This document shows, one piece after another, positions 385 to 3,300 of a stretch of DNA of 64,000 bases. The notes under the pieces are model-generated. The model had not been told where the DNA came from. It was given only the letters and a program-made list of their open reading frames with translations, and ran no database searches. Source of the DNA: Eleginops maclovinus. Its lineage: Eukaryota > Chordata > Actinopteri > Perciformes > Eleginopidae. Position 1 is the stretch's first letter, and every line of letters begins with the position of its first letter. A program made the translations under genes and the position numbers. The DNA lies in assembly GCF_036324505.1 (NCBI RefSeq), contig NC_086370.1:8666512-8730511 (forward strand). Reading direction: 5' to 3'.

Positions 385-3300
385 CTTCAAGCACAGGGTG
401 TGGAGGGAGGTTTTATAAGGGTTCACAATGAAATAAAAGGACGGTTAGAAATTTTTAAAAAAGGAAGAGGAAGCATGGGTGCTTTGGAGGAATTGACAGT
501 GCAGGATTCAACAATAGAAGTCTTAAACAGTGTTATACAAGTGTTTTGGCATCATAGGGTACACGTCAGTCTCCTGGACCCCGAAGCAGGCTGCTAATAC
601 AGCAGGTCTGTTTTGAGTTGTTTAGGGTATTTTATCAGATGGTTCTGCAAAATGAACACACAGCAAGAAAACAACAGGATTCTAGGAGACTGAAAGTTTG
701 TTTTTAAGTGATAAAAGGACTTGAGGATGAGGCTAGTGCACCGCCCAGCTTTTCCCACAGACCGCACGGCGATGAGTGGTAATTCAAGATTAAACACATT
801 GTCGGCGCGTGTAAGGTCCGGGGAAGCAGAAAGTCCAACATTGTGTCTCAATGAATCATGTCAGATAGACATATACACAATCGTCCAACTCTACAGACTC
901 CTCTCGAGAAGATAAACAAGGTTAAAGCAGACGCTGCACGCATGAAGACAATTAAAATCGCATCATCTCTGCATGCTCCTCAAACGCAATTCCAGCTCAG
1001 ACACAGGGAACTGTGGTGATGGCGGAGTGATGGGGGCGAAGACGAGGTAAATGTGTGAAGGTCAAGAGGGTTCAGCTGACGAACTGCATCCACCTTAAAC
1101 CGAGAACAGCTCAAGACTGAAGACCTGGCTGACTGACCGAGGGCCAACTCAGACACCTGGAGAAACACTGCTCTCAACCATGGCGTATGGAAACATTTTC
1201 CCCTCCATTTCCTCTCCCTTTCATTCTCGCTTCTATACACATACACTTACTTTAATTCCAACATGTTAATTCAGTTTTTTATGCAATCATAGAGACTTTC
1301 TAACTGCCTTTCTGTTTGTTGGTGCAACGTTTTTGTATGAATAGTTCATTGATTACAGTCTATGTACAGTGTCATAGTGTTTGAAGATGTATACAGTACA
1401 TTTATAACTGTTCCTTATGATTGAAACATGTGAAATGAGTTAAATCTTTGAAAAAAATGTTTAAATGAAAATAATAGCCCCTATAATCTTAAAGGGTGAC
1501 TTCGGTTTTGGTTTGGAACTGGTCCAGTGTAGTTATAACTTGGGGCAATTCTGCAGCATCATTATACGTTCAATAAAAGTTCTTGTGCTTGACAAGCTTA
1601 GTGTGGTATTATAAGTGTCTGACCACATTATGGAAAGGACATTTTTCAAGTTGAGCCAGATCAGGTTTGTTTGTTATTGTGTCATGTGACCTGTTGCTAG
1701 ACGATAATGGTGGAAACATGACGGAAAGTAACAGATATTGCTGGTGTTGTCAGAGTTTGTTGTGTTGGATTGCAAACAAAGTAGTGTAGTGTAACCCTAA
1801 AGATTTGTAATGTCATAGTTCAACATTCAGCTTATTTCGATAATCTTGAAGCAGCTCGAGAGTTCATAGTGAAACTTCTCCTTGAGCGACTTTAAGTTAG
1901 ACTCAATAACAAACCGACTGGATCAAGCGAAAGGAGGAGAACAACATTTGATTCTCTGTAAGATGCGTTCATTAATGTTGTCAGACAAACAATCTGAGCC
2001 TGCAGTGGCAAAGATGTAACTATTTTAGTGGATGCACATTGATGCTGCTGCTCAGTTAATGCTCGTCTAATTTCAAATTGTTGTCCAAATGAGTCAGATA
2101 GACAACACTAACACTTTGGAAAATATGGCCCAGGTGGAAAAATACCAAACTCACCCTTTAAGGTATAACAATGTTTCACAATTCATTAACTATTTTGGTA
2201 AATAATAATTACTAACAATAATTACATTCTAAAAAACAAATGCTTTTGTAGCATTTTGTCAAATAAAATCATTATAAGCACTTAATAATAAACTTTAGAC
2301 CGTTATAATATTAACATCTAATATTCATTAGAGATTAGAGCAAGATAAAATCCTTTTGATGTCTCTGAAAGTGCCCATACTTGTAGACCCTTTCCCTCCC
2401 TCCCTCCCTCTGTACCCCTAGAGCAGGTTGACCTATGCCCCCCAGCCTCTGACCTGGCTCTCGGAGGGTTTGTCAGGAGGGTCCTTGTGAATGGCCATCT
2501 GGTAGAGTTTGTACACCTGGTAGGAGGCGTCGAAAGAGGCTTTGAACTGCGGGCTAGGGGGATTGGAGCGCACTAGCCTCACCTTCAAAAAGAATACGGG
2601 CAGACAAAGGTTAACATCAAAACGGACAAAGTACAGAGAATTACATAAGTGGTGATTCAAATCCTTAACAAAGGGAAGAAGTGTGAAAAGAGTGTGAAAG
2701 GAGGGAGGGACACAAACACACCCTCTTTGCCGGGAAGATTTTTGAACCATCTTACAAATAAGATGGGAAAGTGTTGCTATCTTTCTTTAGCAAATGGCCT
2801 TGTTTTCACCAATGGCAGCTGTTGGTAGCCTTAGCTGTAGCTTGATGGGAAAACAAGAATAATACAAAGAGGGTGTGTTATGTCCATCTCCACACAAAAT
2901 CGGCAGGGGTCCCCCAAAAACAACAAAGAACATAACAAGCAATCAAGTAAAAGAAAACATAATAGAGCAGAAATCACATTTTTTGTGTCCATCTTCTCTT
3001 CGTATTGTGGATTTAAGCCGATTTCCAGAGCTTCACCATGCCATTACATAATGAGAAATAGCAATAATTTGTTTTAACATTCACAGCAATGGAAAACAGA
3101 TCATCTTTTTAAAGATATTTTTCTCCTTTGTTGCTCTTCATTGTTCTGTTGTCATGTGCCTACATGTGTTCTAGTAGAGCTACACTGATACATATAGTGG
3201 CAAATATTACATTATTGTAGACGTATGATTTTGAAGATGCAGCAGGGCAAAACTACATTTCAGGTCATCTTAAAACAGTGTTCCTATTTTATAGTGTCTC

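Follow-up and report, generated by a model that had tools for sequence, protein, structure and literature searches.

The choice between the two alternative exons of ATE1 in Eleginops maclovinus is probably governed by a single intronic docking element, here called R3, which is predicted from the sequence to pair with one selector at a time. R3 (GCACTAGCCTCATCCTCAAG, 720..739, minus strand) lies in intron 7. In the window, meaning the whole stretch of 64,000 nt that was analysed, the transcript strand carries it only once. The two candidate selectors are the splice acceptors of the alternative exons, each taken together with the first 13 nt of its exon: acc7 (2570..2589, minus strand) for exon 7 and acc7' (372..391, minus strand) for exon 7'. 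Each selector can pair with R3 at 19 of 20 positions, and both span the acceptor, i.e., they overlap splice sites. R3 lies inside the interval singled out in the first-pass annotation, which named none of the three elements.

ATE1 is transcribed from the minus strand, and the 5' part of the gene falls within the window. A tblastn search with a human ATE1 protein as the query returned seven ATE1 stretches that follow one another in the expected order between 16885 and 256, and the peptide joined from the N-terminal four matched Pfam ATE_N (E = 1.4e-27); the earlier identification of the gene as ATE1 is thus backed both by the exon order and by the domain. Exon 7, the first alternative exon (2454..2582, minus strand), and exon 7', the second (256..384, minus strand), are arranged in tandem, are equal in length (129 nt each) and in frame, and encode peptides that are identical at 22 of 43 residues. 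The exon numbers follow the human naming and were assigned by inference; the window ends 255 nt past exon 7'. Searched against Pfam, the 43 residues of exon 7 gave no match and those of exon 7' a single one, to DUF6657, that fell below the cut-off (E = 0.054). Judged from its sequence, the locus holds the two alternative exons of ATE1.

Elsewhere in the window, the minus strand upstream of ATE1 carries ORFs at 29959-30405 and 33467-34030, which encode the beginning of a trypsin domain (PF00089) and PRY and SPRY domains (PF13765, PF00622), respectively, and long AGAT and AC/CA microsatellites occupy 45529-45826, 47891-48007, 50463-50660, and 59411-59597.

The complementarity between R3 and the selectors is extensive. 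The acc7:R3 duplex comprises 17 Watson-Crick and 2 wobble pairs (-38.9 kcal/mol) and the acc7':R3 duplex 18 and 1 (-40.7 kcal/mol); the selector 20-mers differ by one T/C change, and the pair with R3 is kept either way. On the entire 64-kb transcript strand, R3 is the best partner for both acc7 and acc7', with the next best at -30.2 and -31.7 kcal/mol, respectively. R3 was spotted by eye first and tested afterwards. Across 150 shuffles of intron 7, the best duplexes averaged -23.8 kcal/mol for acc7 and -25.8 kcal/mol for acc7' (sd 2.4), with extremes of -30.2 and -34.7 kcal/mol. When real 30-mers of the window, sampled outside 200-2800 and outside three dinucleotide repeats, were matched against intron 7, none of the 600 reached -35 kcal/mol, the best standing at -34.7 kcal/mol.

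An unbiased scan of 9-mer-seeded helices over positions 1-5330 yielded 68 helices, among which acc7:R3 ranked first (-38.6 kcal/mol) and R3:acc7' third (-35.4 kcal/mol), both stronger than the best of 200 shuffles (-33.3 kcal/mol); these energies differ slightly from the duplex energies because of fixed padding. The perfect core of the R3 pairing, 12 nt in length, is less striking by itself, as that length was reached in 5 (acc7) and 3 (acc7') of 2000 shuffles. A search of Rfam at gathering scores gave 0 matches, and so did a pattern scan of viral contigs. Neither R3 nor stem H, a helix upstream of exon 7 that is described below, proved to be a repeat copy: when 1-5700 was compared with the whole window by blastn (dust on, E up to 1e-3), the sole hit besides self-matches was the pair 1797-1838 and 7199-7240, which lies outside both.

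If these helices form in cells, R3 would pair with acc7 or with acc7', never with both at once; the acceptor paired with R3 would be hidden by a helix that spans about 20 positions, and would stay unused, and the free acceptor would be spliced. With R3 on exon 7', where 328 nt separate the two arms, exon 7 would be free for use. With R3 on exon 7, where 1830 nt separate them, the acceptor would be buried and the exon body and donor looped, so that exon 7' would be used. In each helix the only mismatch falls on the A of the acceptor AG, which stands opposite a C (386 and 2584, minus strand). An A opposite a C is a context favoured by ADAR enzymes.

Of the two states, pairing with exon 7' is prominent in the predicted ensembles: R3:acc7' takes up 18.77 of the 20 R3 bases in the 250-2900 ensemble, with G-quadruplexes (G4) allowed or not, and 17.73 of the 20 in the 200-1000 ensemble. 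That helix alone would favour exon 7, and the other state, with R3 on exon 7, would need folding kinetics, proteins, or a long-range module of the sort reported for human ATE1.

The same ensembles lend weight to a rival reading in which R3 serves exon 7' only: a local helix would hide that acceptor, exon 7 would be the default, and the match of acc7 to R3 would stem from exon duplication. R3 is absent among the listed partners of acc7 in the 250-2900 and 600-2900 folds made without G4, because acc7 is taken up by a local hairpin within exon 7, and the penalty for forcing acc7:R3 is 17.7 kcal/mol (-713.7 against -731.4 kcal/mol for the free fold). Since acc7 and acc7' are homologous, their two matches to R3 are not independent, and that of acc7 may simply follow from the coding sequence that they share. 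The likeness of the two exon starts, however, points the other way. Common to both exon starts, across the acceptor, is TTGAAG|GTGAGGCTAGTG, an identity of 18 nt (12 exonic and 6 intronic) that is far above the match over the rest of the exons (59/117) or over the 60 nt upstream of the acceptors (25/60, the 6 shared nucleotides included). The first four shared residues use the same codon in 4 of 4 cases, compared with 9 of 18 for identical residues elsewhere in the exons; the counts are small, and together with the 18-nt identity they suggest that both selector copies have been kept. As an isolated duplex, acc7:R3 is also as strong as R3:acc7'. We therefore hold the reading of R3 as an element for exon 7' only to be live though unlikely, and we favour an R3 that would alternate between the two acceptors.

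Kalinina et al. reportedly described, in 2021, competing RNA structures R1-R5 in human ATE1. In this system, R1 and R4 compete for R3, and R2-R5 spans 30 kb (PMC11802352); R1-R5 are regions that overlap splice sites (PMC8052449). The entries for ATE1 helices in PMC8052449 give a length of 13, a spacing of 952, and an energy of -35.9 for exon 7a, and a length of 17, a spacing of 51, and an energy of -33.2 for exon 7b; these rows were matched to R1R3 and R3R4 by inference. An effect is reported for mutations that affect the human pairing (PMC9198270), and the proteins ZFR and ILF3 are described as affecting ATE1 exon choice (PMC10790352).

The candidate module described here has much in common with R1/R3/R4 of human ATE1 as these papers present it: it lies in the same gene and at a homologous exon pair, one of its elements is able to pair with either of two others, and its elements overlap splice sites. 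The energies are close to those in human ATE1 (-38.9 and -40.7 here, -35.9 and -33.2 there, under a different program setting), whereas the arms are spaced more widely (1830 and 328 nt, against 952 and 51). We regard the R3 module as a probable further case of this human logic of two elements competing for a third, and by this analogy R3 and its two selectors would be the counterparts of human R1/R3/R4. A partial search of the literature by title found no paper on ATE1 splicing in fish.

A second point of comparison is provided by the mutually exclusive exons of insects (Dscam and others), in which a docking site pairs with one selector at a time and for which tandem duplication has been proposed to create the competing selectors (PMC6071210). 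As far as that account goes, the likeness extends to one docking site, alternative selectors, exclusive pairing, and duplication as a source of selectors. There are two differences from Dscam exon 6: the docking candidate in ATE1 lies between the exons, whereas the Dscam docking site lies upstream of the cluster, and the selectors in ATE1 include the acceptors, whereas pairing in Dscam promotes splicing of the chosen exon. By analogy, selectors that include duplicated acceptors would be a simple case of selectors made by duplication.

The first-pass annotation had located the switch in three low-complexity tracts on the minus strand: a G element, GAGGGAGGGAGGGAGGG (2394..2410), a (GGGA) repeat with a quadruplex motif; a C1 tract, TCCCTCCCTCC (2700..2710), 117 nt before exon 7; and a C2 tract, CCTCCCTCC (402..410), within a pyrimidine-rich stretch and 17 nt before exon 7'. 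According to this model, G would have two alternative partners: pairing with C1 would loop out exon 7, and pairing with C2 would mask the acceptor of exon 7'. The letters and coordinates of the three tracts are exact, the G element begins 43 nt after the exon 7 donor (about 44 had been given), and the 11 (C1:G) and 9 (G:C2) Watson-Crick pairs are real. The pairs are also rarer than expected from composition, because dinucleotide shuffles with the G element kept fixed seldom reach such runs (at least 11 for C1:G in 4/1000 shuffles of intron 6; at least 9 for G:C2 in 10/1000 shuffles of intron 7). In the scan described above, C1:G (-31.0 kcal/mol) and G:C2 (-30.6 kcal/mol) came fourth and fifth of the 68 helices, and in a fold of 2300-2720 without G4, C1:G is dominant, with 14 pairs including wobbles and 13.81 of the 17 G bases. 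Forcing C1:G (9.5 kcal/mol) or G:C2 (8.4 kcal/mol) is cheaper than forcing acc7:R3, but the three costs are not like for like because only acc7:R3 must give up R3:acc7'.

These points in favour of the tracts have to be set against how readily such tracts find partners. They were a post hoc choice from a 64-kb window in which tracts of this kind recur: CCTCCCTCC is matched 7 times when both strands are counted, and two of these matches overlap each other within the G element itself. Within 1-17000, the G element has six binding sites with energies of -30.2 to -32.8 kcal/mol, namely 2712 (C1), 6448, 5564, 3664, 5668, and 412 (C2), with C2 the sixth. Two of the four further sites, 5668 and 5564, are just upstream of the preceding exon, and 5564 falls in what is likely its pyrimidine tract. 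The statement that G can pair with only one partner at a time is therefore true but not special, given six nearly equal partner sites. C1 lies 117 nt and C2 17 nt from its acceptor, so that the two do not resemble copies of a single selector, and the sequences upstream of the two acceptors match at only the 25 of 60 positions noted above. C1 moreover adjoins and partly overlaps stem H (2704..2890, minus strand; arms 2890-2862 and 2732-2704), a helix of -38.9 kcal/mol as a duplex and the second of the 68 in the scan (-37.8 kcal/mol, against -33.3 kcal/mol for the best of the 200 shuffles).

Longer folds are less kind to the tracts than the short one. In the 250-2720 fold without G4, C1 and its flanking bases take 3.65 of the 17 G bases and C2 and its flanking bases 0.05, and the interior of exon 7 takes most of the G element. 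In the 250-2900 fold without G4, the five partners listed for G include neither C1 nor C2, and the last of the five accounts for 0.01 of 17 bases. Wherever G4 was allowed, the G element formed a quadruplex (-36 kcal/mol, ViennaRNA). The folding check proposed with the first-pass annotation, a comparison of the minimum free energy of 250-2720 with 36 shuffles, gave a z of -2.5, a mild signal that is linked to no element. As a switch between exons 7 and 7', the tracts are thus weak, because G can form a quadruplex, four other tracts bind it nearly equally well, and at most 0.01 of its 17 bases pair with either C1 or C2 in the 2.65-kb fold; we consider this model very unlikely. The broad idea that the competing-pairing logic of ATE1 is present in this gene is nevertheless supported, through R3 and its two acceptors and not through the tracts first put forward. 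The mechanism first proposed was probably of the right kind but built on the wrong elements, and its tracts are probably incidental.

The G element may have a function of another sort. It fits the quadruplex motif (four runs, each of three or more G, separated by loops of 1-7 nt), here with one-base loops, and it follows a donor with weak U1 pairing (-6.9 kcal/mol for exon 7, against -9.6 kcal/mol for exon 6). From motif and position, an element of the hnRNP H/F type would be plausible at this site. A part of G-rich elements and hnRNP F/H in splicing is described in PMC7404189 and, to judge by their titles, is also the topic of PMC10514471 and PMC13001508, and the resemblance to the G-run elements of PMC7404189, read here from the sequence alone, lies in the motif and in the typical place past a weak donor. 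That the run, as an ordinary intronic splicing element (of the hnRNP H/F type or a quadruplex) acting on this donor, would account for the exon choice, with no pairing switch working through it, is highly improbable: G runs occur elsewhere in the window, which has four quadruplex motifs, and such an element alone leaves the R3 match unexplained. The R3 model and a splicing role for the G run can be true together.

A further reading invokes recursive splicing as the main means of mutual exclusion: once exons 6 and 7 were joined, a strong donor would arise anew at the junction, and through it exon 7 would be removed and exon 7' taken instead. Both exons begin with a donor-like AAG|GTGAGG (2576-2585 and 378-387, minus strand), whose U1 duplex of -10.1 kcal/mol each is stronger than those of the exons' own donors (-6.9 kcal/mol for exon 7 and -5.7 kcal/mol for exon 7'); the exon 6-7 junction, GAG|GTGAGG (-10.2 kcal/mol), could therefore be a recursive donor, the partial donor being completed as in a recursive-splicing (RS) exon. 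RS-exons are described as beginning with a partial donor, with competition against their own donor deciding inclusion (PMC6224609). As an explanation of the exon choice, this is scarcely credible, for repression of such sites by the exon junction complex is the normal case (PMC6224609), the strengths are simple U1 duplex estimates, and the R3 match is unaccounted for. There is a very slim chance that the shared 18-nt start combines all three roles, as acceptor, R3 selector, and latent recursive donor, and that mutual exclusion is enforced twice: R3 would hide one acceptor, and if exon 7 were joined first, the recreated donor could splice it out again and let exon 7' take its place. Under this reading, editing of the acceptor A that stands opposite a C in both helices could in principle destroy a masked acceptor.

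For those who look for regulatory structure around exons, the locus is a reminder that low-complexity G and C tracts near exons easily mimic competing helices. If the R3 switch is true, the docking logic of human ATE1 would be present in this species, with explicit, testable elements of 20 nt and with other spacings. It would also allow one to ask how old the structural switch is and whether a duplicated acceptor was the first selector.
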